Source: Candidatus Puniceispirillum marinum IMCC1322
Lineage (GTDB): Bacteria > Pseudomonadota > Alphaproteobacteria > Puniceispirillales > Puniceispirillaceae
Assembly (NCBI RefSeq): GCF_000024465.1
Contig: NC_014010.1
Span: forward strand, 248,001-312,000
Direction of reading: 5' to 3'
DNA: 64,000 bases
Part shown: positions 34,612 to 54,307 of the stretch, piece after piece
How positions within the stretch are numbered: position 1 is the first letter of the stretch
Layout: each line of letters opens with the position of its first letter
The notes under the pieces: generated by a model
What the model saw: only the letters and a program-made list of their open reading frames with translations
Databases searched by the model: none
What the model was told of the DNA's origin: nothing
Made by a program: the position numbers and the translations under genes

Positions 34612-34668
34612 AATGATCTGGTTCCTTGATGTAAACGTGGTTGTGCTTTTATAGGTGCTTAAATCAGA

Positions 34669-38558: not shown

Positions 38559-38689
38559 AACAAACTTTGTCTTTTTTAAAAAAGCAAAATATTTGTTCTA
38601 AAAATATCTTTACTTTCGAACGTGTAAAAGTTTTTATAAGTTTGCCTATCAGGTGTTAATGATTGGCTAAAACTTATGGGAGTGAAAAA

Positions 38690-39595
38690 ATGAAAAAAAT
38701 TGTAATGGCTGTTTCAGCCATGATGATGATGGCTGGCGCTGCTCAGGCGGAACGCTATGTAATGGTCACACATGGAGAGGGTAAAGATCCTTTCTGGCCT
38801 GTTGTCCAAAAAGGTGGTGAAGATGCTGCACGTCACGTAGGTGCAGACTTTGAATATATCTTCAACCCATCAGGCGACATGGGTGATATGGCAAAATCAA
38901 TCACCGCTGCTGCGGCTACACAACCAGATGGTATTGTTGTGTCATTGCCAGATCCAGATGCACTTGGTCAGGCCATCAAAGACGCTGTTGCAGCTGGTAT
39001 TCCTGTTGTAACAATGAACTCTGGTCTTGAGTCATCAAAAGAAGTTGGCGCGCTTATGCATGTTGGTCAGCCTGAGTATCTTGCTGGTCAGTCAGCTGGT
39101 AATCGTGCAAAAGCCGAAGGTGCAACCAAAGGCCTTTGCTTCATTCAGGAAGCTTACAACACAGCACTGAACGATCGTTGTAACGGTTACGGTGAAGCTG
39201 TGCCTATCAAGCTTGTAGATAGTTCGAATGACCCAGCAACCATTCCAACACGTGCGGCAGCTGGTCTTCAGGCAAACCCTGATATCGACGCTGTTCTATC
39301 TGTTGGCCCACATGTTTGTGTAGGTGTTCAGCAGGCCATTGACGAGCTTGGTATGTCTGTTCACCATTCATGCTTCGACCTTAGCCCACCAGTTATGGAT
39401 ATGATCAATGCTGGTAAGGTTCAGTACACAATTGACCAGCAGCAGCGTTTGCAGGGTTACATGCCTATCATTGTAATGCATCTGTACAACAATGGTGCAG
39501 GACTGCTTCCTGGTGCTAACATCCCGTCAGGCCCAGGCTTTGTGGATAAGTCAAACGCATCATCTGTAGCTGCTCTTGCAGGTGTAGATAGATAA
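38690..39595 (+). CDS. Sugar/inositol ABC transporter substrate-binding protein
   Basis: 301 aa periplasmic binding protein (ribose/LacI-like type I fold). The start at 38690 gives a signal peptide KKIVMAVSAMMMMAGAAQA. The mature part has THGEGKDPFWPVVQKGGED, GIVVSLPDPDALGQAIKDAV and IDQQQRLQGYMPIIVMHLY. The context with iol genes makes inositol or a derivative the likely ligand; xylose is the alternative. A terminator hairpin directly after the gene probably keeps its expression above that of the permease. Confidence 0.87.
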   Translation: MKKIVMAVSAMMMMAGAAQAERYVMVTHGEGKDPFWPVVQKGGEDAARHVGADFEYIFNPSGDMGDMAKSITAAAATQPDGIVVSLPDPDALGQAIKDAVAAGIPVVTMNSGLESSKEVGALMHVGQPEYLAGQSAGNRAKAEGATKGLCFIQEAYNTALNDRCNGYGEAVPIKLVDSSNDPATIPTRAAAGLQANPDIDAVLSVGPHVCVGVQQAIDELGMSVHHSCFDLSPPVMDMINAGKVQYTIDQQQRLQGYMPIIVMHLYNNGAGLLPGANIPSGPGFVDKSNASSVAALAGVDR

Positions 39596-39610
39596 GTTTG
39601 TTATAAATTG

Positions 39611-39642
39611 AAAGTGGGTAGCTTTTTGCTACCCACTTTTTT
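39611..39642 (+). terminator. Hairpin terminator/attenuator between binding protein and permease genes
   Basis: A 12-bp stem AAAGTGGGTAGC (39611-39622) pairs with GCTACCCACTTT (39628-39639), with a 5-T loop and a T-run to 39642. It lies 15 bases after the binding-protein stop and 17 bases before the permease ATG, so it is likely a partial terminator that lowers permease/ATPase expression. Confidence 0.88.
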
Positions 39643-39659
39643 ATTTGATGGGGAATAAA

Positions 39660-41246
39660 ATGAACGCGTCCGTATCTCAACGGCAAGAATCCGATCGTCA
39701 CGAACAAAAGAAGTGGCTGAAAACTCTTTTTTCCAGACCTGAAATTGGCCCTGTTGGGGTTATGTTATTGCTTTTTGGAATGCTGGGATATTTTTCCATC
39801 CCATCAGGTGAATTTTCTTTAAATCCTTTTGCCGGCGAAGGTTTTAACGCACTTGGCATACGAAATAATTTACGTGTTATCTCGCAACTAGCAATTATTG
39901 CGCTAGGTGCTGGTTTGTTGATTGTTGCTGGTGAATTCGATTTGTCGATTGGTTCGATGATTGGTTTTGCTGGTGCCTGTATGGCGATGGTTTTGCGCTG
40001 GGGTTTCTCGATTATAATTCCCTATATTTCCTTTGAGGGTGGGGTTCATATCGAGTTCTACACGCTTATACACATACCTGATGTGTCGCCATTGGGTGCG
40101 CTATTGATAACGCTTTGCTTCACACTATTTTTTGGCTGGTTACAGGGATATATAGTTGTCAAATCTGGCCTGCCGTCATTCATTGTAACGCTGGGTGGCC
40201 TGTTCTTCCTGCGAGGGCTGACCGAGGTTTCCTTAAGGTCATTCAACCATAGGCCTGATCAGATTAAAGGTGCCACGACCGTTACTGAGATTCCGGATAT
40301 AAAAAATATCATCAATCTACCTGGCCATGGTGAAATGGAACGATCGGTAGCTAAAGCATTGCCTGAGGCTGACCTGACCCAGCTTTTAAGCACGCTACCA
40401 GCTGATAAGATTGCAAGCATCACGGAACGTCTTGAATATACCTATCAGCGTGTTGCCGATGCCAAGACAGAATTGATGATTTCCAGAGGTGTTAAGCCAT
40501 TGGAACGGGCATTAGAAAATGCCATCGAGTCAGGTAACGAATTTATGGCGAAGACAATTCAGGATAAAATTGCCAATTTCAAAGTAGATCCTGTGGTGCC
40601 AAAATCGGTCACTGATGTTGATGTGGCGCGGGTTTATATTGACAGTATTAGTTCAGCCAGACCGATTGCTGATTTCTTTGGTGGTGATATTCTGCAGCCA
40701 CTATTTGACTGGCTCTACTTCCCCATTGACTGGAATGTAAATAATTTTGGTAATCAATTTGCCCAGGGTCTTTATTCCTGTGTGATGATCTGCCTGATCA
40801 TGTCATTGATGTGCTATTTTGTGCTTAGCAAGACACAGGCTGGCAACTGGATTTACTCGACTGGTGGCAATATTACGGCGGCCAAAGCGAATGGTGTTCC
40901 GACCAATAAGGTCAAAATATCTTTGTTCATCTTCTCGGCCTTTTGCGCAACAATTTTTGCCGCATGTCAGGTGTTTGAAGTCAATACCGCTGATGCGGCC
41001 AAGGGTAACCTGAAAGAACTGGAAGCTATTGCCGCCGCTGTTATTGGTGGTATCGTGATGACAGGTGGTTTTGGAACGGTTGTTGGTATCATTGTTGGTG
41101 CCTTTATATTTGGTATAGCCAAAGAAGCCTTTTTCTATATTCCGGGCATTGATGGGTCGTTCTATCGCGTGTTCCTTGGCCTTGTGATTATCGCATCGGC
41201 TTTGCTGAATGAAAATATACGAAAACGGATAATGGGGACCATTTAA
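39660..41246 (+). CDS. ABC transporter permease (BPD_transp_2 family) with large internal insertion
   Basis: 528 aa against about 320-350 aa for ordinary RbsC/FrcC-type permeases. The N-terminal half is family-like, with LLIVAGEFDLSIGSMIGFAG and SGLPSFIVTLGGLFFLRGLT. Conserved sequence resumes at GNWIYSTGGNITAAKANGV and the C-terminal VIGGIVMTGGFGTVVGIIVG. Between them (about residues 195-370) lies a long, mostly polar, helix-rich stretch with LERLEY-like and LERALENAIE segments, probably extracytoplasmic. The start at 39660 follows GGGG with 6-base spacing. The ATPase gene begins one base after the stop. Confidence 0.85.
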   Translation: MNASVSQRQESDRHEQKKWLKTLFSRPEIGPVGVMLLLFGMLGYFSIPSGEFSLNPFAGEGFNALGIRNNLRVISQLAIIALGAGLLIVAGEFDLSIGSMIGFAGACMAMVLRWGFSIIIPYISFEGGVHIEFYTLIHIPDVSPLGALLITLCFTLFFGWLQGYIVVKSGLPSFIVTLGGLFFLRGLTEVSLRSFNHRPDQIKGATTVTEIPDIKNIINLPGHGEMERSVAKALPEADLTQLLSTLPADKIASITERLEYTYQRVADAKTELMISRGVKPLERALENAIESGNEFMAKTIQDKIANFKVDPVVPKSVTDVDVARVYIDSISSARPIADFFGGDILQPLFDWLYFPIDWNVNNFGNQFAQGLYSCVMICLIMSLMCYFVLSKTQAGNWIYSTGGNITAAKANGVPTNKVKISLFIFSAFCATIFAACQVFEVNTADAAKGNLKELEAIAAAVIGGIVMTGGFGTVVGIIVGAFIFGIAKEAFFYIPGIDGSFYRVFLGLVIIASALLNENIRKRIMGTI

Positions 41247-41247
41247 C

Positions 41248-42036
41248 ATGGCAAAGTCACAGACACAGCCGCTGATCGAAACCAAAGATCTGGTTAAAAA
41301 ATTTGGTGCTTTCACGGCGTTGAACGGCGTTTCCCTTCAGGTTTATCCAGGGGAAGTTCATGCCTTGCTTGGCGATAATGGTGCGGGTAAATCCACCTTG
41401 ATTAAATTACTGTCAGGGGTTTTTGCCCCCAATAGCGGCAGTATTTATGTCGAAGGCAAGCAAGTCAGTTTTGCGTCTCCCCGTAATGCGAGTGATGCTG
41501 GCATCGGGACTGTTTATCAAGATTTAGCTCTGAATCCTCTGGCTTCGGTAACGCGTAACTTCTTCCTTGGGCGTGAAATAACGCATTTTGGCGGTCCATT
41601 TGGATTGATGAAAATGCAAGAAATGCATCGCATTGCCATAGACGAAATGGCAAAGATTGGTATTAATATTGCTGATCCCGAGCAGTCCGTAGGTACCATG
41701 TCAGGTGGCCAAAGGCAGACTCTTGCTATTGCCCGTGCGATTTATTTTGGCGCCAAGGTGCTTATTCTTGATGAGCCAACATCGGCACTTGGTCAGAAGC
41801 AGCAAATGGAAGTTCTGAAAACCATCAGACGTGTTCAAAAGCTTGGTGATATTGCTATTATTTTGATTACGCATAACGAAATTCATGCTCGTTTGATCGC
41901 TGACCGCTTTACCTTTTTGTCGCTTGGCGAAGTGATCGGAAGTGGAACCTCCGAAGACCTTGGTGGCGATGATATCAAACGTTTGATGGCGGGTGGTGCC
42001 GAAATTGGTGATCTGGCAAAGGAGCTTGCCATTTAG
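41248..42036 (+). CDS. Sugar ABC transporter ATP-binding protein (single-domain, FrcA-like)
   Basis: 262 aa with one nucleotide-binding domain: Walker A GDNGAGKSTLIKLLSG, signature TMSGGQRQTLAIARAI, Walker B VLILDEPTSALG and the switch His in ILITHNE. Classical ribose/inositol ATPases (RbsA, about 500 aa) have two domains; this resembles the shorter FrcA type, which dimerises. It works with the upstream permease and binding protein. Confidence 0.9.
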   Translation: MAKSQTQPLIETKDLVKKFGAFTALNGVSLQVYPGEVHALLGDNGAGKSTLIKLLSGVFAPNSGSIYVEGKQVSFASPRNASDAGIGTVYQDLALNPLASVTRNFFLGREITHFGGPFGLMKMQEMHRIAIDEMAKIGINIADPEQSVGTMSGGQRQTLAIARAIYFGAKVLILDEPTSALGQKQQMEVLKTIRRVQKLGDIAIILITHNEIHARLIADRFTFLSLGEVIGSGTSEDLGGDDIKRLMAGGAEIGDLAKELAI

Positions 42037-42086: not shown

Positions 42087-42905
42087 ATGGATGCGGTTAC
42101 AGTTCCACCACAAACCTATGACGGTTTGATCGAGCTGATTACATCGAGCCATAATCACATGCCAAAGCGTCTTCGCGACATTGCGCAATTTGCCCTTGCT
42201 AACCCTGAAAAAATGGCACTTGATACGCTGGCTGAACTGGCGGAAAGCGCCGACTCGAATCCATCAACAATGGTGCGCTTTGCCAAACAGCTAGGTTATA
42301 ATGGGTTTTCACAGCTTCAAAATGTGTTTCGTGACCGTTTGCGGGGAAACTGGGTAAGCTATGAGAGCCGGTTAACCGACTTGAATGAGTCATCTTCTGA
42401 AGATATTTTCGACTCAATTGTTATGTCTGCCGCGCGTTCTGCTATGGCTATGCGAGATAATCTTAATAAGGCCGATGCCAAGGTAGCGGCCGGACGCATT
42501 GCTGAGGCTGATGTTGTGTGGCTGGCTGGGTCAGGACGTACCGAAGGGGTGGCAACCTATTTATCCTACTTATTAACACGCATTGGTATTATGAATCGGT
42601 TTATTTCCCTGTCGCCGTCACAATCATTACAGGAATTGAGTCTGGCAGGAGACAATGACGTTCTTTGTGCATTCAGCTATATGCCCTATAGCGATGTCAC
42701 CATAGCTTTGGTGGATGCCGCACGTCGTCGGGATCTTGATTGCATTAGCATAACTGATACCGAAGTAAGCCCTATCATTCATGGCATCAGCTTGTTTCTG
42801 AAAGAAGAGGATTATGCAGGCTTCCGATCACTGACAGCATCCATGAATCTTGCCCAATATCTGGCAATAGAGGCAGGTATTCAAAAAAGATCAATGAAGG
42901 GTTGA
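42087..42905 (+). CDS. MurR/RpiR-family transcriptional regulator (IolR-like)
   Basis: 272 aa. The N-terminal RpiR helix-turn-helix is in PKRLRDIAQFALANP and AESADSNPSTMVRFAKQLGYNGFSQLQ. The C-terminal SIS domain (about 125-260) has WLAGSGRTEGVATYLSYLL and a sugar-phosphate pocket. Rhizobial IolR repressors belong to this family. Preceded by GGAGGG and located between the transporter and the catabolic operon, it is the obvious controller of the island, probably sensing a phosphorylated inositol-pathway intermediate. Confidence 0.87.
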   Translation: MDAVTVPPQTYDGLIELITSSHNHMPKRLRDIAQFALANPEKMALDTLAELAESADSNPSTMVRFAKQLGYNGFSQLQNVFRDRLRGNWVSYESRLTDLNESSSEDIFDSIVMSAARSAMAMRDNLNKADAKVAAGRIAEADVVWLAGSGRTEGVATYLSYLLTRIGIMNRFISLSPSQSLQELSLAGDNDVLCAFSYMPYSDVTIALVDAARRRDLDCISITDTEVSPIIHGISLFLKEEDYAGFRSLTASMNLAQYLAIEAGIQKRSMKG

Positions 42906-42960: not shown

Positions 42961-43070
42961 GTTTTTTGATGTGTGACAGCTAATTGTCTGACATATTGAT
43001 GACCTGATAAATTATTTGAAATAGATGTCTTTGATATTGTCAAAATGTTGTCTTGACGAAGAGTTGTAAA

Positions 43071-45035
43071 ATGCCAAACACAGCAATGCCAGAACCCAAA
43101 CTCGATGTGATCTGTATTGGTCGTTCTTCGGTTGATCTTTATGGAAGCCAGATTGGTGGTCGGCTTGAGGACATGGCTGGCTTTGCTAAATATATTGGGG
43201 GTAGCCCTACAAATATCAGTATTGGTGCGTCTCGTCTGGGTCTAAAATCAGCGGTAATTACACGTGTTGGTGATGAGCATATGGGGCGCTTTATCCGCGA
43301 ACAGCTTGTTGCCGAAGGCGTCGATGTTTCGGGTGTCATCACTGACCCTGTTCGCCTTACGGCTTTGGTGCTTTTGGGCATACGTGATAATGCGCAGTTT
43401 CCGTTGATTTTCTATCGTGAAAATTGTGCTGATATGGGGCTTGTCGAAGATGAGATTGATCCAGTCTTTATAGCTTCTGCGCGGGCTGTTCTGGTTACAG
43501 GTACGCATTTTTCAACACCGCAGGTTGCCGCAGCAAGTATGAAAGCAATCCGGCTAGCGCGTGCAGCTGGTCGTAAAGTTGCTTTTGATATCGATTACCG
43601 GCCAAATTTGTGGGCTTTAGGCGGGCATAATGATGGTGAAAGCCGGTTTGTGGAAAGCGCTTATGTGACCGAACATTTACGCCCGATTTTGTCTGAATGT
43701 GACCTGATTGTGGGCACTGAAGAAGAATGGCATATTGCTGGTGGATCGACCGATACATTGGCTGCTTTGGCCTCGGTGCGTGCTTTTAGTGATGCGACCA
43801 TGGTTTGTAAGCGTGGTGCTCTGGGCTGTACGGTATTTGCAGGCAAGGACGATAATGATGTCGCGCAGGAACCTGTTCAAATTAGGGGATGGGATGCGGG
43901 TATAACCGTACCTGTGCAGAAAATAGACGTATTCAATGTGCTGGGAGCTGGTGATGGCTTCATGGCTGGATTTCTTCGTGGTTGGCTCCGTGGTGAGTCT
44001 CTGGCCACGGCGGCATCTTATGCAAATGGGTGTGGCGCGCTTGCCGTTTCACGGCATGGCTGTGCCCCTGCATATCCGTCATTTGCGGAATTGTCACATT
44101 TGTTGACGCATGGCAGTTCGGAATTTGCGTTACGAAAGGATACCCAGCTCAGCCAGTTACATTGGGCTACAACGCGCCGTCGCCGCTGGCATAAGCTTGC
44201 AGCATTTGCTTTTGACCACCGTCATCAGTTTGTTGCCATGGCTAAACAGCATGGTCGTGACGAAGCTGCCATTGATGAATTTAAGTTGTTGGCACTTGAG
44301 GCAGCCGCTAAAGTGATAGGCGCGGCAGGCGAAGAAGGTTCTCAGACAATGGGTATTCTGGTGGATGATCGTCTTGGTCGATCTGCCTTGCATAAAGCCT
44401 CAGACCTTGATTGCTGGATTGGGCGTCCGATTGAAGAGTCAGGTGTGTTTCCTTTATCCCTTGAGGAAGCGCCGGATATCGGCTCGCGGCTGGCACAATG
44501 GCCAGCAAATCATTGTGTTAAAGTGCTACTGCCATTCCGAACAGACGATTCATCTGACATTATTGATGGTCACGAAAAATTGATTGTCCAGCTTTTTGAT
44601 GCCTGTCAACAGACCAACCATGAAATGCTGTTGGAAATTATCACCGCACGACCTGACAAGCCAACGGCTGTTGATCAGGTGCCGCAGATCATAGAACGCA
44701 TGTATGAACTTGATGTATTTCCTGACTGGTGGAAACTGGAGCCTGTTGATAAGCCTGAATTCTGGACGCAATGTGGTGATATTGTTCGCAAGCATGACCC
44801 GCATGTCCAAGGGATTATTGTTCTGGGCAAAGAAGCGCCTAGTGATGTGCTGGCTGGGGCGTTTGCCGCCGCTAAAACAGAACCTCTGGTAAAAGGCTTT
44901 GCCATTGGCCGGACAATTTTTGCTGATGTGGCTGCTTCCTGGTTTAAAGGTGAATTGACTGATGCTGCTGCACGCGACAGCATGGCAGATAAATATAGTA
45001 ATCTTATTGCACTCTGGAACAAGGCAGGCGCGTGA
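43071..45035 (+). CDS. iolC: 5-dehydro-2-deoxygluconokinase fused to DUF2090 aldolase-like domain
   Basis: 654 aa from the ATG at 43071. Residues about 8-330 are a PfkB kinase: CIGRSSVDLYG, GGSPTNISIGASRLG and NVLGAGDGFMAGFLRG, the last with the catalytic Asp. It phosphorylates 5-dehydro-2-deoxygluconate. Residues about 345-650 are a DUF2090 domain (WATTRRRRWHKLAAFAFDHR at its start), which in such fusions is thought to supply the aldolase step giving malonate semialdehyde and dihydroxyacetone phosphate. First gene of the long iol operon; iolD follows after one base. Confidence 0.93.
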   Translation: MPNTAMPEPKLDVICIGRSSVDLYGSQIGGRLEDMAGFAKYIGGSPTNISIGASRLGLKSAVITRVGDEHMGRFIREQLVAEGVDVSGVITDPVRLTALVLLGIRDNAQFPLIFYRENCADMGLVEDEIDPVFIASARAVLVTGTHFSTPQVAAASMKAIRLARAAGRKVAFDIDYRPNLWALGGHNDGESRFVESAYVTEHLRPILSECDLIVGTEEEWHIAGGSTDTLAALASVRAFSDATMVCKRGALGCTVFAGKDDNDVAQEPVQIRGWDAGITVPVQKIDVFNVLGAGDGFMAGFLRGWLRGESLATAASYANGCGALAVSRHGCAPAYPSFAELSHLLTHGSSEFALRKDTQLSQLHWATTRRRRWHKLAAFAFDHRHQFVAMAKQHGRDEAAIDEFKLLALEAAAKVIGAAGEEGSQTMGILVDDRLGRSALHKASDLDCWIGRPIEESGVFPLSLEEAPDIGSRLAQWPANHCVKVLLPFRTDDSSDIIDGHEKLIVQLFDACQQTNHEMLLEIITARPDKPTAVDQVPQIIERMYELDVFPDWWKLEPVDKPEFWTQCGDIVRKHDPHVQGIIVLGKEAPSDVLAGAFAAAKTEPLVKGFAIGRTIFADVAASWFKGELTDAAARDSMADKYSNLIALWNKAGA

Positions 45036-45036
45036 T

Positions 45037-46905
45037 ATGACACATGTAAGATTAACAATGGCGCAGGCATTGACGCGCTATCTTGCGGCACAATCAATCA
45101 GACAGCTTGATGGGTCAACCGCGCCCGCTTTTGCGGGGGTGTGGGCTATTTTTGGACATGGAAATGTCGCTGGGCTGGGTGAGGCGTTATATGCAACAAA
45201 AGACGATTTACCAACATTTCGGGGACATAATGAACAGGGTATGGCGCATGCGGCCATTGCCTATGCCAAGCAAAGTAACCGCCGCCGGATGATGGCTGTT
45301 ACATCGTCAATCGGCCCAGGCGCAACAAATATGGTAACTGCGGCCGCCTTGGCACATGTAAACCGTTTGCCGGTACTGTTTTTACCAGGGGATGTGTTTG
45401 CGGATCGCCGTCCCGATCCGGTTTTGCAGCAGGTTGAAGATTTTACCGATGGCACTGTATCAGCAAATGACTGTTTCCGGCCTGTCAGTCGCTTTTTTGA
45501 TCGGATCACAAGGCCCGAGCAGATTTTACAAGCTCTGCCAAAGGCCATGGCCGTATTAACTGATCCAGCGGATTGTGGTCCTGTGACCTTGAGCCTGTGT
45601 CAGGATGTGCAAGCTGAGGCTTATGATTTCCCGGTGAGTTTCTTTGCACCAAAAACACATGAAATTCGCCGTCAGAAAGCCGATCAGAACGAGTTTGATG
45701 TTGCTATTGACGTGCTTGCCAAGGCAAAACGCCCCTTAATTATTGCTGGCGGTGGGGTGCGCTATTCCGGTGCGTCGGATGATTTGGCGGCTTTTGCTAC
45801 ACGCACTGGTATTCCGGTTGCCAGCACGCAGGCAGGTAAATCTGCACTAATTGATAGTCATGATCAGAATTTAGGGTCACTTGGCGTTACAGGCAGTAGC
45901 GCGGCCAATGCATTGGCTGAAACAGCAGATGTTGTCTTGTCGGTTGGCAGTCGTTTACAGGATTTTGCCAGCGGATCAAATGGTATGATCAAAGGTCAGA
46001 TAATCGCTTTGAATGTGCAATCGCATGATGCGCTCAAACATAATGCCTTGCCATTATTATGCGATGCCAAACAAGGGCTTAATGACTTGTCAGATGCCTT
46101 ACCTGAACTACAGATTTCATCATCCTATGCTGGTGAAATTGCTGATCTGTCGGCAATTTGGGAAGCTGATATGGCTGTTGTTACCAGCGCAGAGACTGTC
46201 AGTACCAACGCCTTGCCATCAGATAGTCAGGTGATCGGTGCGGTGAACCGGAATGTTCCAGATAATACGATTGTTGTTGGCGCTGCGGGATCCATGCCAG
46301 GGGAATTACATAAACTATGGCAAGCTGGTGCTGTCGATGGGTATCATATGGAATATGGCTTTTCCTGTATGGGATACGAAATCGCTGCTGGCATCGGCGT
46401 GCATATGGCCGCTCCTGATCGTCCGAATGTCATTTTCACCGGTGATGGTTCTTATCTGATGATGAATTCGGAACTAGCAACAGCTGTTATGATGGGTGTG
46501 TCATTGACCTTAATCGTGACGGATAATCGTGGCTTTGGTTGCATCAACAGGCTTCAGGCAGGTACAGGCGGTGCTGCCTTTAATAATATGCTAGCAGACT
46601 CATATCACGCGGTTCTGCCCGATATTGATTTTGTCGCGCATGCGGCGGCAATGGGCGCGCGTGCAGTAAAGGCGGAGACTCTGGCTGCGCTTGAAGAACT
46701 GACGGCGGCGGCGATCAAACATGATGGCGTTGATGTGATTGTCATTGATACGGATCCGGCTCATAGCACTGAAGCTGGCGGCATATGGTGGGATGTTGCT
46801 GTACCTGCTGTGTCCAAGCGCAAAAGTGTAAACGAGGCGCACGCTAAATATGTTAAAGGCCGAAAGCGTCAGGCAAAAGGCGCACCATTGGCATCAGGTA
46901 AATAG
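45037..46905 (+). CDS. iolD: 3D-(3,5/4)-trihydroxycyclohexane-1,2-dione acylhydrolase
   Basis: 622 aa TPP-dependent enzyme that opens the inositol ring to 5-deoxyglucuronate. The catalytic Glu is in FRGHNEQGMAHAAIAYAK, SSIGPGATNM follows, and the TPP/metal motif is GDGSYLMMNSELATAV with TDNRGFGCINRLQ. The start at 45037, one base after the iolC stop, is preferred to a longer frame within iolC. Length is normal for IolD. Confidence 0.94.
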   Translation: MTHVRLTMAQALTRYLAAQSIRQLDGSTAPAFAGVWAIFGHGNVAGLGEALYATKDDLPTFRGHNEQGMAHAAIAYAKQSNRRRMMAVTSSIGPGATNMVTAAALAHVNRLPVLFLPGDVFADRRPDPVLQQVEDFTDGTVSANDCFRPVSRFFDRITRPEQILQALPKAMAVLTDPADCGPVTLSLCQDVQAEAYDFPVSFFAPKTHEIRRQKADQNEFDVAIDVLAKAKRPLIIAGGGVRYSGASDDLAAFATRTGIPVASTQAGKSALIDSHDQNLGSLGVTGSSAANALAETADVVLSVGSRLQDFASGSNGMIKGQIIALNVQSHDALKHNALPLLCDAKQGLNDLSDALPELQISSSYAGEIADLSAIWEADMAVVTSAETVSTNALPSDSQVIGAVNRNVPDNTIVVGAAGSMPGELHKLWQAGAVDGYHMEYGFSCMGYEIAAGIGVHMAAPDRPNVIFTGDGSYLMMNSELATAVMMGVSLTLIVTDNRGFGCINRLQAGTGGAAFNNMLADSYHAVLPDIDFVAHAAAMGARAVKAETLAALEELTAAAIKHDGVDVIVIDTDPAHSTEAGGIWWDVAVPAVSKRKSVNEAHAKYVKGRKRQAKGAPLASGK

Positions 46906-46919
46906 ATAAGGAGACTTAG

Positions 46920-47744
46920 ATGGCTGATCTTCTGATATCACCAGATCTGAACGGTAAGGCCGTACAGGATATTACCCCGGCTTCGGCCGGGTGGGGGCAT
47001 GTTGGTTTTGCCACCTATGACCTGGCGCCTGGTTCAATGATTGATGCGTCTATTGCCGCGACCGGTGACGCAAATCAGGATGTTGAAATATGCCTTGTTT
47101 TGTTATCTGGTTCAGCCAGCATTTCAGCAGGTGGACAGGATTTTGGGCTGTTAAAAGGGCGCAAATCGGTTTTTGATCGGGTGCCTCCGTTTGCCGTCTA
47201 TGTGCCAAAGAATACGGATTTTACGGTCACGGCTGAAACTGCATGTGAGGTAGCTGTTTGTCGTGCACCTGGCCTAGATGGTTCACATCCGGTGCGGTTG
47301 ATCACACCAGACGATATGTCTCTTGAAGTGCGGGGAAGTGGAAGCAATACCCGCCATATCTGTAACATTTTACCCGAAACTGAACCAGCGGACAGTTTGC
47401 TGGTTGTTGAAGTCATTACGGAAAGTGGAAATTGGTCATCTTATCCACCACATAAGCACGATACTGATGATTTACCACATGAGTCCTATCTGGAAGAAAC
47501 CTATTACCACCGAGTCGATCCACCTCAAGGTTATGTGATGCATCGTGTCTATAATGATGACCGTAGTCTTGATGAGTCGATGGCAGCAGGGGATAGATCA
47601 GTTGTTTTGGTGCCCGAAGGGTATCACCCTGTTGGCGTGCCGCATGGTTATGACAGCTATTATCTTAATGTAATGGCCGGACCAAAGCGAGTATGGAAAT
47701 TCCGCAATGATCCTGACCATGACTGGATTGTAAACCCAAAGTAA
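46920..47744 (+). CDS. iolB: 5-deoxy-glucuronate isomerase
   Basis: 274 aa bicupin isomerising 5-deoxyglucuronate to 5-dehydro-2-deoxygluconate. Metal-binding residues are seen in SSYPPHKHDTDDLPHESYLEE-like sequence (His-Lys-His, then Glu) and a later His in GVPHGYDSYYLNVMAG. AAGGAG precedes the ATG. It lies 14 bases after iolD and 12 before the first oxygenase gene. A second, divergent IolB is encoded at 51534-52391. Confidence 0.92.
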   Translation: MADLLISPDLNGKAVQDITPASAGWGHVGFATYDLAPGSMIDASIAATGDANQDVEICLVLLSGSASISAGGQDFGLLKGRKSVFDRVPPFAVYVPKNTDFTVTAETACEVAVCRAPGLDGSHPVRLITPDDMSLEVRGSGSNTRHICNILPETEPADSLLVVEVITESGNWSSYPPHKHDTDDLPHESYLEETYYHRVDPPQGYVMHRVYNDDRSLDESMAAGDRSVVLVPEGYHPVGVPHGYDSYYLNVMAGPKRVWKFRNDPDHDWIVNPK

Positions 47745-47756
47745 CGAGGCATCACT

Positions 47757-48593
47757 ATGACACTTAATGAGCATGACTTTAATGTTGCAACCGAAGCATT
47801 GATTGAAGGCCCTGGATATTATCTTTTTCCGTCTGTATTTTCTGCCGAACAGGTAGCTGAGGCCAATCGCATCATCAATTTTCATTCAAATGAAGCGCAG
47901 GCCGCCACACATTTTCATGGTGCACATTCAGATAAAGTTCACCTTCAGCGCCGCGTATGGAATTTGCTGAATAAGGGTGATGTTTTTGTTGATATGGTTC
48001 AGCATCCTGCTGTCATGGCGGTATTTTCAAAGGTACTCGGGCGCAATTTCATTCTTGGTTCTTTTGCGGCCAATCGTTTGTTGCCTGGTGCGCCTGGTCA
48101 AGAACCACATGTTGATTATCCCTATTGGGATATGCATGATATTGATGAATTTCCCGCAGGTATAAATTCAAGTTTTCATATGAATTGTCAGTCACTTATC
48201 AGCCTACATGAATTTACTGCTGAAAATGGTGCGACTGGTATTGTCCCGCATTCTCAAAAGCGTGGTGTCTATCCAAAAGCAGAAGAATTTGAAGCAGAAT
48301 TCATTCAGGTTACAGCTCCTCCAGGCAGTTTGCTTTTATTCACCGGCATGAACTGGCATTGCTCAATGCCGAATAATTCAGATGCTGAACGCACATCAAT
48401 TCTGGGGCAATATCTACCCAAATTTGTCAAACCAATGGAAAATCTTCTGGAAAGTGTTAATTCCGATATTCAGGCTAGTGCAAGCCCGGCATTACGGCAG
48501 CTTCTGGGAAGTGATTTGCGCTATCCTGAATTGCTTGAAGACGCCGAAGCAGGTAATGCAGAAGGCCGCAGCGCCACCGAAGCGGCTGAGTAA
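47757..48593 (+). CDS. Phytanoyl-CoA dioxygenase (PhyH)-family Fe(II)/2-oxoglutarate oxygenase, first copy
   Basis: 278 aa double-stranded beta-helix oxygenase. The iron facial triad is visible as H118-x-D120 (in QEPHVDYPYWDM) and H201 (in GMNWHCSMPN), with R212 as the 2-oxoglutarate-binding Arg. It lies between iolB and iolE with gaps of 12 and 28 bases, so it is part of the operon and not an unrelated neighbour. PhyH enzymes hydroxylate or demethylate small molecules. It could strip a methyl or other group from a substituted cyclitol, but the substrate is unknown. Confidence 0.85.
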   Translation: MTLNEHDFNVATEALIEGPGYYLFPSVFSAEQVAEANRIINFHSNEAQAATHFHGAHSDKVHLQRRVWNLLNKGDVFVDMVQHPAVMAVFSKVLGRNFILGSFAANRLLPGAPGQEPHVDYPYWDMHDIDEFPAGINSSFHMNCQSLISLHEFTAENGATGIVPHSQKRGVYPKAEEFEAEFIQVTAPPGSLLLFTGMNWHCSMPNNSDAERTSILGQYLPKFVKPMENLLESVNSDIQASASPALRQLLGSDLRYPELLEDAEAGNAEGRSATEAAE

Positions 48594-48621
48594 TATCATT
48601 TATCTTATTAAGGATAGCTTT

Positions 48622-49557
48622 ATGTCATCAACGATTATATCCCCCTCTGCCAGCGGGCTTAATGTTCGCCTTGGCATGTCCCCTATCTCATGGAGCAATG
48701 ATGATTTGCCACAACTTGGTGGCGACACATCTTTGGAAACCTGCCTAATAGAGACTCGTGAGGCTGGATTTACAGGCACCGAGACAGGTGGAAAATTCCC
48801 CAGTAATGCGGTTGAATTAGGTTCGGTCTTGGGATCACATGATCTGGCACTGGTATCTGGATGGTATTCAGGCACCATGATTTCGAATGATATTGAGTCT
48901 GAAAAACGTCGTATTACGCCACAACTCGAACTATTTCGTAATGTCGGGGCGGCGGTGATCGTTTATGGTGAGACCTTTGAAACTGTTCAGAATCAGCAAA
49001 GCCGCGCTTTGGCATCACGGCCCAAGCTGGTTGACTTCGATGCTGTTGCTTATGGCCGCAATCTGACTTTGCTGGCTGAATATTGTGCTGATTACGGCGT
49101 ACCATTGACCTTGCATCATCACATGGGCACTGCGGTGGAAAGTGAAGCCGAAATTGATACCATGATGAACAATACGGGTGAGGCAGTGAATTTACTGCTT
49201 GATACCGGACATCTGGTCTTTGCTGGCGGTGATAATGCGTCAGTAATCAGCAAATATGGACAACGTATCAACCATGTCCATACCAAGGATATTCGTCCAG
49301 ATATATTGGCTGGTATTGACCGTGACGAAAAGTCGTTTCTTGATTGTGTGCTTGATGGTGTCTTTACTGTGCCAGGTGATGGCATGATCGATTATCATGA
49401 CGTGATGCAGCGGCTGGCAGATGTAGGTTATGAGGGCTGGGTCATTGTCGAGGCTGAGCAAGATCCGATTAAAGCTAATCCCCTTGTTTATGCAAAAAAA
49501 GGCTATGACGCGCTAATGGAGGCGCTGACTAAAGCCGGATATGGTGTAACATATTAG
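48622..49557 (+). CDS. iolE: Myo-inosose-2 dehydratase
   Basis: 311 aa TIM-barrel dehydratase converting 2-keto-myo-inositol to the trihydroxycyclohexane dione that IolD opens. It has LGMSPISWSNDDLPQLGG at the start, FTGTETGGKFP, the metal-binding HHHMGTAVESEAEID and DTGHLVFAGGD blocks, and NHVHTKDIRPD. The start at 48622 gives the family N-terminus; the longer frame from 48382 runs inside the preceding oxygenase gene. Confidence 0.93.
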   Translation: MSSTIISPSASGLNVRLGMSPISWSNDDLPQLGGDTSLETCLIETREAGFTGTETGGKFPSNAVELGSVLGSHDLALVSGWYSGTMISNDIESEKRRITPQLELFRNVGAAVIVYGETFETVQNQQSRALASRPKLVDFDAVAYGRNLTLLAEYCADYGVPLTLHHHMGTAVESEAEIDTMMNNTGEAVNLLLDTGHLVFAGGDNASVISKYGQRINHVHTKDIRPDILAGIDRDEKSFLDCVLDGVFTVPGDGMIDYHDVMQRLADVGYEGWVIVEAEQDPIKANPLVYAKKGYDALMEALTKAGYGVTY

Positions 49558-49586
49558 GGGCAAATCTGGGAAGGACTGAGGAAAAT

Positions 49587-50477
49587 ATGGATTGGGTGCG
49601 CGCAAAAGCCGAATATGATCGTGATGGTTTTTACGTCATCGATAATTTGCTTCGCCCGGACGAAATTGACGACTTGCTTGCCGAAACAGCGCAGATTTGC
49701 CGAGGCAAGCGGGGTGCTGTGCGAGGTATTGCCGAAAACAAGCATTTACTTGGTGATAACCTAGATGATAACGACATTTTATCGCGTGTACTGACAATTC
49801 AATTCCCTCATAAAGCATCGCCTATGATACGCGATAATTATATCGCGCATCCGCGTATTGCCGAAGCTCTGAGCTATCTAATTGGTCCAAACGTAAAAGC
49901 AATGCAGTCAATGCTGTTTATCAAGCCATCGGGAAAACCCGGACAGGCATGGCATCAGGATGAACATTTTATTCCCACACGCGACTGCTCGCTGACTGGT
50001 TTGTGGATTGCGCTTGATGATGCAACCGTTGAAAATGGGTGTCTTTGGGTACGTCCGGGAAGTCATAAAGACCGTGTGATTTATGATACCGCGCCGCACG
50101 GATCGTCTGATTTTGACGAGGGAAACCAGTTAGTCGGCACCCCGGATGACGCTGACGCTGGTGTGCCCGTAGAGGTCAAGCGCGGTTCAGCAATTGTATT
50201 TAACGGCTATCTGCATCATCGAAGTTTACCGAATAAGGCAGAGAAGGGGACGTTTCGTCGTTCATTGGTCAATCACTATATGAGCGCCAATTCATTATTG
50301 CCATGGGATTGGGATGGCCGGATCGCACCAACCCGCGATATGCGCGATATTATGCTTGTTTGCGGTGTCGATCCTTATGCGTGGAAAGGAACCGAGGATA
50401 TCACCTTTGCCTTTTTGCGTGCTGAAACAGCCGATAATAACGATCCTAATCGGGATACACAGAAAAAGGTATTTTGA
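49587..50477 (+). CDS. PhyH-family Fe(II)/2-oxoglutarate oxygenase, second copy
   Basis: 296 aa with its own facial triad: H123-x-D125 (in GQAWHQDEHFIPTRD) and a distal His at 210/211 (NGYLHHRSLPN), followed by R224/R225. The ENGCLWVRPGSHKD block is typical of PhyH enzymes. It shares only the family fold with the first copy, so this is not a recent duplication. GGAAGGA lies before the ATG. Its stop overlaps the ATG of the second kinase gene (TGATG), implying that its product acts in the same pathway. Confidence 0.87.
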   Translation: MDWVRAKAEYDRDGFYVIDNLLRPDEIDDLLAETAQICRGKRGAVRGIAENKHLLGDNLDDNDILSRVLTIQFPHKASPMIRDNYIAHPRIAEALSYLIGPNVKAMQSMLFIKPSGKPGQAWHQDEHFIPTRDCSLTGLWIALDDATVENGCLWVRPGSHKDRVIYDTAPHGSSDFDEGNQLVGTPDDADAGVPVEVKRGSAIVFNGYLHHRSLPNKAEKGTFRRSLVNHYMSANSLLPWDWDGRIAPTRDMRDIMLVCGVDPYAWKGTEDITFAFLRAETADNNDPNRDTQKKVF

Positions 50478-51520
50478 TGCCAAAATTCAAACATCTGGAA
50501 GCGTTGCTAGCGCGTATGCAAAACGGTCGTTTTCTTTGCGTAGGTCGCGCTGGACTCGATCTATATCCAGAACCAGTTGGCACCAAGACCAAAGATGCAA
50601 CGCATTTCAGTGCCGATCTTGGTGGCTCGGCGGGCAATATAGCTGTCGCCCTGGCCAGACATGGGAAAATTGCCGCCTTAGTCACGGTGCTATCTGCTGA
50701 CCCTGTGGGGGTTTTTACCAAAACACGCCTAGAACATTATGGTGTTGATACCGATTGCCTAAGATTTTCTAATGGTAAGCATGAAAGGTTGGCAAGAAAT
50801 TCGCTGGCGATTGCCGAAACCCGTCCAGATGATGCCGAGGTGGTGATTTATCGAAACGATGCGGCGGATTTACTGTTATGTGAAGATGATGTTGCTTCAC
50901 TTGATTATGATAATACAGCGGCTTTGGTTGTAACCGGAACGGCGTTGTCAGCTAATCCTTCACGTGACGCTGTCTTTGCCGCCGCCAGACAGGCTAATGC
51001 GACTGGTTGCCCAGTTATCTTTGATATTGATTATCGGCGGGATGCCTGGCAAAGCGTTGAAGATGCCGCCCATATTGGCAGAGAATTCGCGGTTCTTTGC
51101 GATATTGTTATTGGCAATGATGATGAATTTGATGTGCTGGCAACGGGTACAAAACAGGGCGGTATGTCTTATGCTTCGGGGTTGGCTGGTGATGTTGGTC
51201 TGGTTTTATACAAGCAAGGTGCTGCCGGATGTCAAACGTTATATATTGATACAGAGCATGAAAATAAGGATATAACTATATCAAAATATGGAATTTTTAA
51301 TGTGTCGATAGCTAAACCATTTGGTGCAGGGGACTCTTTTATGGGGGCTTTTCTAGCCGCGCTTCATGCGGGGGTTTCGCTTGATGATGCTGTTATTCGT
51401 GGGTCGGCGGCGGCGGCTATGGTGGTGTCACGGCCGGGATGTGCGTCTGCTATGCCTGATAAAGATACGTTGGACAGTTTCATGGCACAAAATACAGCCA
51501 GCGAATTTGGCGCTACATAG
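50477..51520 (+). CDS. PfkB-family sugar kinase (IolC-like kinase without aldolase domain)
   Basis: 347 aa. It has FLCVGRAGLDLYPEPVG at the N-terminus, LGGSAGNIAVALARHG and the ATP/catalytic motif KPFGAGDSFMGAFLAAL. The N-terminal region resembles IolC but the DUF2090 domain is missing; an aldolase of another family is encoded two genes downstream. It overlaps the second PhyH gene by one base. It probably phosphorylates a 2-deoxy-keto-aldonate or related acid made by the second IolB. Confidence 0.88.
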   Translation: MPKFKHLEALLARMQNGRFLCVGRAGLDLYPEPVGTKTKDATHFSADLGGSAGNIAVALARHGKIAALVTVLSADPVGVFTKTRLEHYGVDTDCLRFSNGKHERLARNSLAIAETRPDDAEVVIYRNDAADLLLCEDDVASLDYDNTAALVVTGTALSANPSRDAVFAAARQANATGCPVIFDIDYRRDAWQSVEDAAHIGREFAVLCDIVIGNDDEFDVLATGTKQGGMSYASGLAGDVGLVLYKQGAAGCQTLYIDTEHENKDITISKYGIFNVSIAKPFGAGDSFMGAFLAALHAGVSLDDAVIRGSAAAAMVVSRPGCASAMPDKDTLDSFMAQNTASEFGAT

Positions 51521-51533
51521 ATGGAGATAGATT

Positions 51534-52391
51534 ATGCATATTCCACCGCATGAAAATAATAATAAGCCAATTATTGATGCGCATCATGCATCGGTGCCGT
51601 TGACCTATTTTAATATTGTCAAATTATCCAAGGGTGAGAGCTTTACCTATGCGGTGCCAGACTATGAAACCTGTATTGTACCCGCTACGGGTTGTATCGA
51701 CATATCTATTGCAGCAAAAGGGACTGCAGACCTTCATTTTGACAAGATTGGTAATCGTGGCAGTGATGTATGGGATGGCGAACCTGAAGCGGTCTATGTA
51801 CCAACAGGTATGACGGCGCATCTCACATGCCAAAGCGACAATGCGGAAATATTCATAGCTGGTGCCCAATTTGCCGAGACATTGACGCCTTTTGCTGTAC
51901 GGCGTGATGAAATTGATCTGGTTCAATATGGTTCGGATGATACCAAGACACATCGCAAGATTAAGCATATTCTGGGGCAAAAACAGGCTGATAAGGTTGG
52001 GCGCTTGCTTGTATCAGAATTATTTACCGTTGGCACAGGTGGCTGGTCCGGTTTTCCACCTCACAAGCATGATACCGACCGCAAGCCCGATGAAACCCGC
52101 CATGATGAGGTGTATAACTTCCGGTTCCGTCCAGATTTCGGTTTTGGCATGCAATTATTACAGCCCGCAGATGGCGGGCAGGGCGATGCGTTTCATATAA
52201 CCAACGGATCAACTTTTGCGATCCAGTCCGGCTACCATCCGTGTGTTGTCGCGCCAGGCTATGAGATGTATTATTTCACCATCCTTGGCGGTTTGAGTCA
52301 GCGACCTCTGGTACAATATTTCCAACCTGAACATGCCTGGCAAATTGAAGTGATTCCGGGCATCAAAGATATGATTGCCAAATTCAAATAG
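51534..52391 (+). CDS. Second 5-deoxy-glucuronate isomerase (IolB family)
   Basis: 285 aa bicupin. The metal site FPPHKHDTDRKPDETRHDE keeps the His-Lys-His and Glu of IolB, and the C-terminal QSGYHPCVVAPGYEMYYFTILGG block is family-like. Its sequence differs strongly from the first IolB at 46920-47744. Two IolB proteins in one operon suggest that two different uronate-like substrates are processed. 13 bases after the kinase gene. Confidence 0.87.
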   Translation: MHIPPHENNNKPIIDAHHASVPLTYFNIVKLSKGESFTYAVPDYETCIVPATGCIDISIAAKGTADLHFDKIGNRGSDVWDGEPEAVYVPTGMTAHLTCQSDNAEIFIAGAQFAETLTPFAVRRDEIDLVQYGSDDTKTHRKIKHILGQKQADKVGRLLVSELFTVGTGGWSGFPPHKHDTDRKPDETRHDEVYNFRFRPDFGFGMQLLQPADGGQGDAFHITNGSTFAIQSGYHPCVVAPGYEMYYFTILGGLSQRPLVQYFQPEHAWQIEVIPGIKDMIAKFK

Positions 52392-52406
52392 TCGGATGGA
52401 TTAACA

Positions 52407-53294
52407 ATGCCCGCTGTCAATTTAACGGATGTTCTCGAACCTGCTCTGACTGGGCATTATGCTGTTGCAGGTCTTGTTGTGCTTGGGTGGGAAGATGCCG
52501 TCGCCTTTGTTGCCGCTGCCGAACAGCTTGGTCAACCGGTTATTCTGCAAGCTGGCCCAGGCTGTCGTCGGCATACGCCGTTGCCTGTTCTGGGAAAAAT
52601 GTTCCGTCATCTGGCTGATAATGCGTCGGTACCGGTTGTCTGTCATGTTGACCATGCGCGGAGCCTAGAGGAGTGCCAGGCAGGCATCGAGCATGGTTTT
52701 ACATCGGTGATGTTCGATGGTTCGGATTTATCCCTGGCGGAGAATATAGACGCAACGCGTGCAGTCGTTAGCATGGCACATCCGGCAGGCGTCAGTGTCG
52801 AAGGTGAAATAGGCATTGTCGGATATAGTGATGACGCAAAGCAGGATGCCACCGCTACTTTATCGCATAGCACCGACCCCTATGAAGCGGCTAAATTATG
52901 TGTGGATAGCGGCCTTGATGCGCTAGCCATCTCAATTGGTAATGTGCACCTGCAAACAGATAGCAAATGTGAAATTGACCGCAAAACGCTGGCGCTAATT
53001 GAGGATGCAATCATAAACGCGTTTCAGGCAAACAGTATAGATCGACAAACTGTACCGCTGGTTTTGCATGGTGGAAGTGGTATTCCACGCACGGTGCGCG
53101 CTGATCTGGCGCGTACAACATCTATCTGTAAATATAATATAGGCACTGAACTTCGTCAGCGATTTGGTGCTGCATTGCGTCACACGCTTGATGAAAACCC
53201 CACGCAATTTGACCGGATTGGCATTTTAAGTGCGGTAATAACACCAATGCAAAAAGCAACAATGGACATTATGCGCGAGTTCGGTGCACCTTGA
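52407..53294 (+). CDS. Class II fructose-bisphosphate-type aldolase (IolJ/GatY-like)
   Basis: 295 aa zinc-dependent aldolase. Catalytic Asp and zinc His are in VPVVCHVDHARSLEE, further ligands in SVEGEIGIVG and the GNVHLQTDS and LHGGSGIP blocks. It probably cleaves the phosphorylated product of the adjacent PfkB kinase, giving dihydroxyacetone phosphate and a semialdehyde. IolC's DUF2090 domain already covers this step for myo-inositol, so this aldolase fits the parallel branch. 103 bases follow before the next gene. Confidence 0.88.
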   Translation: MPAVNLTDVLEPALTGHYAVAGLVVLGWEDAVAFVAAAEQLGQPVILQAGPGCRRHTPLPVLGKMFRHLADNASVPVVCHVDHARSLEECQAGIEHGFTSVMFDGSDLSLAENIDATRAVVSMAHPAGVSVEGEIGIVGYSDDAKQDATATLSHSTDPYEAAKLCVDSGLDALAISIGNVHLQTDSKCEIDRKTLALIEDAIINAFQANSIDRQTVPLVLHGGSGIPRTVRADLARTTSICKYNIGTELRQRFGAALRHTLDENPTQFDRIGILSAVITPMQKATMDIMREFGAP

Positions 53295-53397
53295 TACGCA
53301 TCAATGCAAGATACATAAATCAATGACTAACTGATATTCAAAAGCTATTTGCATCACGCAATGGCTGAATATAACAACAATAAATAAGGTGGGTGTT

Positions 53398-54288
53398 ATG
53401 ACAAAAATAGGAATTGTTGGAATCGGTGATATGGGAAGTGGCATCGCCAAAAACCTTATTGCTGGCGGATTTGATGTTCATGGCATCGATACTTTGGAAA
53501 AGCGTATGCAAGATTTCGTGGCTATGGGCGGGACAGCCGCAAAGTCACTGGCCGATGTGGCTCAGGATGCGGCGGCTGTTTTCGTTATGGTCATGACAGG
53601 CGCTCAGGCAAAGGGCGTGATTTTTGGCGATGATGGATTAGCCGCACAAATACCACATGGATCAAGCATCATATTGACAGCTACAATCAAACCTGCTGAA
53701 GCTTTGGAAATCGCGACAGGCCTTGAAGGTACAGGGGTTAATCTTATCGATAGTCCTGTTAGTGGCGGATTTCCGGGTGCACAAGGTGGCACATTGACGA
53801 TGATGGCGGCTGGCAATGATGAAGCAATGGAAAGGTGCCGCCCCTTTATGGAGGCTGTTTCTGGCACAATTCACAAAGTAGGTGATGCGGCACCGGCTGG
53901 ACAGATTGTCAAAGCATGTTTGCAGTCGTTGATTGGTTCAATTTTCGCGGCAACATTCGAAGCCGCAACATTAGCAGCCAAAGCCGGTGTGCCCGGTGAA
54001 ATTCTTTATAACGTATTCTCGACGTCTGGGGCGTCAAGCGGCATTACCAATAACGCATTGCAAAAGATCATAGATCGCCAGTTCGAAGGCACCGGAAGTC
54101 ATATTGCGACGATGCATAAGGATCTGACCATTTCATTGGCTCTTGGAGAAGAATTAGGTGTCCCCTTACATACAGCTTCGACAGCCATGCAGTTGTTTCA
54201 TGCTGGTAAAACCAAATACCCGGACGGTGATAATTGGGTTGTAACACGCGTTTTGGAAGATATTGTCGGTGCTGAGTTGCATCGTTAG
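53398..54288 (+). CDS. 3-hydroxyisobutyrate dehydrogenase-family oxidoreductase
   Basis: 296 aa beta-hydroxyacid dehydrogenase, from the ATG at 53398 with AAGGTGGG before it. It has GIVGIGDMGSGIAKNLIAGG (NAD site) and DSPVSGGFPGAQGGTLTMMAAG (substrate-binding). The catalytic Lys is in GQIVKACLQ (K172), but the Asn expected three residues later is Leu. HMHKDL-type sequence follows in ATMHKDLTISLALGEELGV. It could act on an aldonate or on a semialdehyde-derived hydroxyacid of the island. The 103-base upstream gap may hold its own promoter. Confidence 0.83.
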   Translation: MTKIGIVGIGDMGSGIAKNLIAGGFDVHGIDTLEKRMQDFVAMGGTAAKSLADVAQDAAAVFVMVMTGAQAKGVIFGDDGLAAQIPHGSSIILTATIKPAEALEIATGLEGTGVNLIDSPVSGGFPGAQGGTLTMMAAGNDEAMERCRPFMEAVSGTIHKVGDAAPAGQIVKACLQSLIGSIFAATFEAATLAAKAGVPGEILYNVFSTSGASSGITNNALQKIIDRQFEGTGSHIATMHKDLTISLALGEELGVPLHTASTAMQLFHAGKTKYPDGDNWVVTRVLEDIVGAELHR

Positions 54289-54307
54289 TTAGTTATTGGA
54301 GAGTAAA

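Follow-up and report, generated by a model that had tools for sequence, protein, structure and literature searches.

Background

The systems that come closest to the inositol (iol) operon of Candidatus Puniceispirillum marinum IMCC1322 described here are the canonical iol pathway with IolC fused to DUF2090, the IolC-IolB-IolJ set (Bacillus subtilis IolJ; Phaeobacter inhibens PGA1_c07220) and the rhizopine (moc) system, of which MocD is an oxygenase. The textbook inositol pathway ends in dihydroxyacetone phosphate (DHAP) and malonate semialdehyde, and the pathway is not known to contain an oxygenase step. The authors of PMC9007349 propose that DUF2090 acts as the aldolase and that IolC-DUF2090 takes the place of IolJ elsewhere. 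Rhizopine, a substituted cyclitol, is catabolised with the extra genes mocBA, mocC and mocDEF (PMC10107442, in part) in a process that requires inositol catabolism (PMC6637203, in part), and thereby sets an example of additional enzymes channelling such a compound into the inositol pathway. The stretch analysed here (the window; 64,000 nucleotides, positions 248,001 to 312,000 of contig NC_014010.1) contains an iol operon in which the gene for IolE is flanked by two genes for predicted 2-oxoglutarate/Fe(II) oxygenases of the PhyH family, PhyH1 and PhyH2. We regard the chance as about even that PhyH1, acting as a 2-oxoglutarate oxygenase, opens the inositol pathway to a modified cyclitol.

Two PhyH-type oxygenases in an iol operon

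The operon (window coordinates; + strand unless stated otherwise) encodes, in this order, IolC fused to DUF2090 (kinase and proposed aldolase, 43053..45035; NF047869, 695 bits, cut-off 600), IolD (45037..46905, with the ATG at 45037 and longer starts possible; TIGR04377, 883 bits, cut-off 715), IolB1 (46920..47744; TIGR04378, 331 bits, cut-off 205), PhyH1 (47757..48593; PF05721, 73 bits, gathering score 22), IolE (48622..49557, ATG at 48622; TIGR04379, 382 bits, cut-off 290), PhyH2 (49587..50477; PF05721, 133 bits, gathering score 22), the PfkB kinase IolC2, which lacks DUF2090 (50477..51520; TIGR04382, 280 bits, below the cut-off of 300), IolB2 of a separate IolB clade (51534..52391; TIGR04378, 154 bits, below the cut-off of 205) and a class II aldolase that is IolJ-like by position (52407..53294; PF01116, 241 bits, and below the cut-off of each NCBIfam model matched). 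Intergenic gaps are 12 (IolB1-PhyH1), 28 (PhyH1-IolE), 29 (IolE-PhyH2), 13 (IolC2-IolB2) and 15 bases (IolB2-aldolase), while the reading frames of PhyH2 and IolC2 overlap; the gene order and small gaps given in a preliminary description of this DNA are thus borne out by open reading frame coordinates and family models. Together with the inositol 2-dehydrogenase IolG (36303..37292; TIGR04380, 406 bits, cut-off 355), the window shares IolG, IolE, IolD, IolB1 and IolC-DUF2090 with the canonical pathway, all above NCBIfam cut-offs and in one cluster, and departs from it in the two oxygenases and the additional lower set that are located around IolE. Judging by these family assignments, plain myo-inositol is probably handled by the cluster without the extra genes. 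That an oxygenase stands in for a missing IolG was ruled out by the presence of the canonical IolG.

Both oxygenases retain the iron- and 2-oxoglutarate-binding residues (H118-x-D120...H201...R212 in PhyH1 and H123-x-D125...H211...R224 in PhyH2), which were invariant in alignments of 6 PhyH1 and 24 PhyH2 sequences, in agreement with the HxD...H motif and arginine reported earlier for both proteins. The predicted structure of PhyH2 (mean predicted local distance difference test score (pLDDT) 85) matched human PhyH with a Z-score of 25.3, and the weaker PhyH1 model (mean pLDDT 65) matched PhyH-type oxygenases with a Z-score of 20.7, the structural matches shown for both oxygenases having 14-28% identity. 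Nothing usable on the substrate came from the fold neighbours, since the substrates of the best matches differ widely and the structural model of PhyH1 is of low confidence. Fold and Fe/2-oxoglutarate motif are common to PhyH1, PhyH2, ectoine hydroxylase, methylphosphonate hydroxylase, KanJ and other PhyH-type enzymes, whereas both window proteins scored far below the NCBIfam cut-offs of the models matched, among them those for ectoine hydroxylase, methylphosphonate hydroxylase and a chlorinating enzyme. Against such specific families PhyH2 reached 59 bits (chlorinating; cut-off 226), 38 bits (cut-off 500) and 34 bits (cut-off 336), and PhyH1 matched only two of them, with 20.6 bits (chlorinating; cut-off 226) and 21.6 bits (deoxypentalenic acid hydroxylase; cut-off 550). 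The two oxygenases are 24% identical to each other over 159 residues, which rules out a recent duplication of one into two.

PhyH1 was found in 11 of the 136 genomes of the order, distributed over five genera, and its gene lay directly 5' of that for IolE on the same strand in every one of them (the window and ten others). Mean identity to the window copy was 75.5% for PhyH1 (10 loci), 73.7% for IolE (10 loci) and 71.9% for IolD (7 loci), PhyH1 having the highest mean identity of the nine operon proteins compared (10 loci); the importer and the Gfo-type dehydrogenase, which were outside this comparison, had higher identity in some loci. A compact operon of ABC importer, PhyH1, IolE, IolC2, IolB2 and aldolase was present in genomes G098 and G105, with IolD and another IolB elsewhere in the genome. 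Genome G075 contains PhyH2 on a contig that ends inside IolE, and is not among the 11. Outside the order, relatives of PhyH1 with about 50% identity were recovered from G288 and G478 (385 genomes of the class) and from G288 and G738 (398 genomes of the phylum). The G288 protein (51%; locus L071), from a different family, is encoded within an iolD-PhyH1-IolC2-IolB2-aldolase operon. Searches of plasmids with PhyH1 (E 1e-20) and PhyH2 (E 1e-30) gave no match.

The distribution of PhyH2 was narrower, comprising 4 of the 136 genomes of the order in two genera (the window genus and one other), in the same operon. The proposal that the oxygenases belong with the iol genes therefore stands for PhyH1, on account of its adjacency to IolE and the G288 operon, and falls short for PhyH2, the iol loci of which are restricted to these four genomes; lack of conservation with iol genes, named beforehand as the refuting outcome of a neighbourhood comparison, did not occur for PhyH1. 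PanB-like genes (ketopantoate hydroxymethyltransferase family) were seen beside PhyH2 relatives in four loci, and near oxygenases at L085:2910-3701, L121:11220-12044 and L015:10880-11668.

One explanation has the oxygenases as operon passengers unrelated to inositol, acting on another sugar or metabolite imported by the same transporter. PhyH genes are abundant in this genome (6 in a single contig of 2.75 Mb), relatives of PhyH2 elsewhere adjoin sugar-type ABC genes by eye (in L015 together with ThuA and PanB-like genes), and the PhyH1 homologue of G478 is accompanied by a short-chain dehydrogenase/reductase (SDR) and an HpcH aldolase. We nevertheless consider this explanation rather unlikely in view of the adjacency of PhyH1 and IolE in 11 of 11 genomes from five genera and of the compact operon in which transporter, PhyH1, IolE, IolC2, IolB2 and aldolase occur together. 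The probability of two of the six PhyH genes falling in one cluster of about 10 kb by uniform chance, computed after the fact, is about 2e-4.

A second set of lower-pathway genes

Orthologues of IolB2 were present in 13 of the 385 class genomes, including that of the window, with 61-79% identity in the 12 others. The genes for IolC2, IolB2 and the aldolase were contiguous in all 13 loci from 12 other alphaproteobacterial genomes, and the set also occurs in the iol clusters of Ruegeria TM1040 and a Rhizobium; in the sister genus the aldolase is absent after IolB2 (L011, L013). Full-length matches to TIGR04378 scored 138-172 bits for the IolB2 clade and 283-367 bits for canonical IolB. The two groups as collected have a mean identity of 25% and differ at many fixed positions, while H177, H179, E192 and H235 are kept in at least 85% of both (7 IolB1 and 19 IolB2 sequences), the His-x-His...Glu...His positions of IolB being what we take to be metal ligands. 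Within the window, identity is 29% for IolB1/IolB2 and 30% for IolC1/IolC2, values that rule out the second set as a recent local duplicate of the first. Recognition of IolC2-IolB2-aldolase as a clade of its own would help annotation, as current family cut-offs miss both its isomerase and its kinase.

In 9 of the 12 other genomes the IolB2 clade was the sole IolB type, no canonical IolB being found (one of the nine has a 28-bit partial IolB match and one is 64% complete), and IolD was above its cut-off in 7 of these 9. The IolE-like gene beside the second set is distant, with 24-28% identity to the window IolE in L064, L065, L067-L069 and L071 and a score in L071 of 181 bits (cut-off 290). The IolB2-only genomes likely use plain myo-inositol. 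The set IolC2-IolB2-aldolase occurs in small genomes of 1.4 Mb (L072, L073 and L074), followed in L072 by an aldose-1-epimerase-family gene; IolD is encoded elsewhere in two of these three genomes, and none is above the cut-off in the third.

The second set has the composition of the IolC-IolB-IolJ set (a kinase without DUF2090, an IolB-family isomerase and a separate class II aldolase in one operon), and differs from it in that the window IolB2 and IolC2 are below NCBIfam cut-offs. The operon thus appears to hold both known lower-pathway solutions side by side, and both IolB types were present in 21 of the 31 iolB-bearing genomes of the order. In G405, from another family, locus L062 has the same operon order with neither oxygenase inside it, and a different PhyH gene lies just downstream on the opposite strand. 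Because the second set occurs elsewhere without these oxygenases and has a known IolJ-type precedent, its presence alone does not point to a new pathway. The preliminary description had assigned to the second IolB, kinase and aldolase the processing of the oxygenase product; a dedicated function of this kind was rejected as a necessity, since 13 of 16 IolB2 loci outside the order (the pieces of L063 and L073 being incomplete) lacked all four oxygenase types searched at loci (PhyH1, PhyH2, a PhyH of about 400 residues and a HalD-like protein) and since 9 of 12 genomes have no IolB other than IolB2.

Association of oxygenases with iol loci

In counts and statistics that ignore the relatedness of the genomes, 4 cases of PhyH within 5 kb of iolB were observed in 22 other class genomes, compared with 0.26 expected. 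In class genomes with canonical IolB only, PhyH was found within 5 kb of iolB in 0 of 14 (some iolB contigs being short), and the genome comparison of 0/14 with 5/12, compiled by eye, gave a Fisher p of 0.012; the iolB beside PhyH in G355 and G442 is of the IolB1 type. Both lower sets could be redundant for plain myo-inositol, with the oxygenases modulating or repairing pathway intermediates, as might be suggested by the genomes in which the second set provides the sole IolB type and by P. inhibens, in which mutant fitness data led to the assignment of an IolJ-like aldolase to myo-inositol (PMC9007349). The absence of PhyH near iolB from the 14 canonical-only genomes speaks against such redundancy, for which the repair role is pure conjecture, and we hold it to be improbable.

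Within the order, an oxygenase was present in the locus at 15 of 19 scoreable IolB2 loci and at 0 of 8 IolB1-only loci (Fisher p 0.0002); adding three contig-limited loci (L118, L131 and L133) changed the latter to 3 of 11 (Fisher p 0.009). In four of the 15 positives (L114-L117) the oxygenase lies 7-8 kb from IolB2 and adjoins IolB1 instead. Loci left out because of a contig end or a partner on another contig were L119, L130, L132 and L134 (IolB2) and L118, L129, L131, L133, L135 and L136 (IolB1); L012, in which IolB2 is cut by a contig end and both PhyH1 and PhyH2 are present, and L011 were likewise uncounted. Outside the order, the IolB1-only loci L085, L086 and L087 carry the PhyH of about 400 residues, which counts against a simple link with IolB2.

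The same figures bear on an explanation in which the oxygenases and the second set form a unit for a ring-opened intermediate: a compound of the 5-deoxyuronate type would be hydroxylated, IolB2, IolC2 and the aldolase would split the product, and tartronate semialdehyde would be reduced by the dehydrogenase encoded at 53389-54288. It would accommodate the enrichment of oxygenases at IolB2 loci of the order, the many fixed positions at which IolB2 is unlike IolB1, and the presence 3' of the aldolase of a 2-hydroxy-3-oxopropionate reductase-like gene (170 bits, cut-off 397). Such a unit nevertheless seems hardly probable to us, given that IolE, which PhyH1 adjoins in 11 of 11 cases, acts early in the pathway, that outside the order 13 of 16 loci have the second set but none of these oxygenases, and that the dehydrogenase was not named in loci of the order, a 26% relative adjoining the aldolase on the opposite strand in L067.

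In several genomes of the order, and at two loci of G355, the PhyH of about 400 residues is the immediate neighbour of an IolB1-type gene, the pairing being seen in L085, L086, L087 (one gene between), L114-L118, L131 and L133, which represent several genera. L085 and L087 have a neighbouring gene that exceeds the L-arabinonate dehydratase cut-off, and L085 also encodes a fatty-acid-desaturase-family protein. On plasmids this PhyH was not beside iol genes in the 7 records examined of 47, so its link with iol is partial; a LacI regulator adjoins it in 6 of these 7. A HalD-like protein is encoded directly before IolC2-IolB2-aldolase in G064 (L121:7458-8444; Pfam 21 bits, below 26; HxD by eye), and L123 and L141, which are from the same genus, yielded no relative. 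In G295, a small protein that looks by eye like a 2-oxoglutarate oxygenase (L066:11973-12590) is encoded near IolC2-IolB2-aldolase, 1.4 kb from IolB2; it has a relative in L121 and was not counted above.

Proposed role of PhyH1

Gene content, motifs, the adjacency of PhyH1 and IolE and the occurrence of the second set without these oxygenases are observed, whereas a cyclitol substrate and a place for PhyH1 ahead of IolE are what we infer in reading PhyH1 as an entry enzyme, to us the most economical account. The candidate substrate would be a modified cyclitol taken up by the importer (O-methyl, deoxy, C-methyl or amino); the preliminary description had suggested O-methylated or phosphonylated inositol, among others. 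With Fe(II), O2 and 2-oxoglutarate, PhyH1 would attack a C-H bond of this cyclitol to yield inositol or an inosose; O-demethylation, hydroxylation of a deoxy position, methyl oxidation and oxidative deamination are candidate chemistries. The product would be processed by IolE and IolD, and either lower set could then lead to DHAP and malonate semialdehyde, while PhyH2 may act at a further position or on another substrate.

Several observations weigh against this role. An oxygenase is dispensable for plain myo-inositol, since IolG, IolE, IolD, IolB and IolC are all in the cluster already. At 34 other loci, none of them titled SAR116, relatives of PhyH2 (46-59% identity) had no iol gene in the fetched pieces (several of which were short), a distant IolE-like barrel in L018 excepted. 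The PhyH1 homologue of G478 (L078) has the SDR and the HpcH aldolase mentioned above and no iol neighbours on a contig that ends about 1.8 kb upstream, and that of G738 (L080) is without evident partners in the piece examined. Finally, none of the oxygenase types searched was present at 4 of the 19 IolB2 loci that could be scored within the order or at the 13 of 16 loci outside it.

A wider possibility, which we consider rather doubtful, is that marine Alphaproteobacteria have an undescribed O2-dependent cyclitol branch, in which iol loci recruited PhyH1, PhyH2, the PhyH of about 400 residues and the HalD-like protein for the same kind of step, and by which algal methylated, deoxy and amino inositols are eaten. 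Conservation of an oxygenase beside IolE in bacteria of the surface ocean would make modified cyclitols a genuine source of carbon in that habitat. PhyH1 and PhyH2 are two enzymes that are open to expression and testing.

The rhizopine system offers a partial parallel. The cluster encodes an ABC sugar importer (binding protein, permease and ATPase, 38663..42036), the binding protein of which is similar to the rhizopine-binding model, yet scores 236 bits against a cut-off of 420; the oxygenases of the window are of the PhyH type, and none of mocDEF was recognised by eye among the open reading frames of the cluster, no mocDEF model having been run and the remainder of the genome being unsearched. 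No paper tying PhyH oxygenases to iol genes was recognised among the literature matches listed, in a search whose coverage mostly excluded subscription journals. For Ensifer adhaerens, a phytanoyl-CoA dioxygenase and inositol genes share one expression table with locus tags far apart (PMC6637203, in part). The parts of PMC7701263 consulted contain nothing on inositol, those of a SAR116 physiology paper mention it only in the osmolyte di-myo-inositol phosphate (PMC12262181), and the word dioxygenase is absent from the main text, as far as available, of a survey of iol clusters (PMC9430895).

Other genes of the cluster

The importer permease (39645-41246) has 533 residues, compared with 353 in L062 and L127, and the long form is also found in L107. 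The importer genes are followed by an RpiR-type regulator (42087..42905; weak matches to RpiR-family models). On the - strand, a second Gfo/Idh/MocA dehydrogenase (37312..38436), which is not a canonical IolG (levoglucosan dehydrogenase model, 328 bits, cut-off 650; IolG, 113 bits, cut-off 355), has relatives of 39-45% identity at IolC2-IolB2-aldolase or related loci. The 3' side of the aldolase (53389-55171) contains the dehydrogenase gene referred to above, which resembles those for 3-hydroxyisobutyrate and L-threonate dehydrogenases (53389..54288; L-threonate dehydrogenase model, 208 bits, cut-off 350) and is of uncertain membership in the unit, and then a xylose-isomerase-like barrel; this pair was not named after the aldolase in loci of the order. 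Adjoining IolG on the - strand (33277-36132), genes resembling those for xylose isomerase and xylulokinase were recognised by eye.

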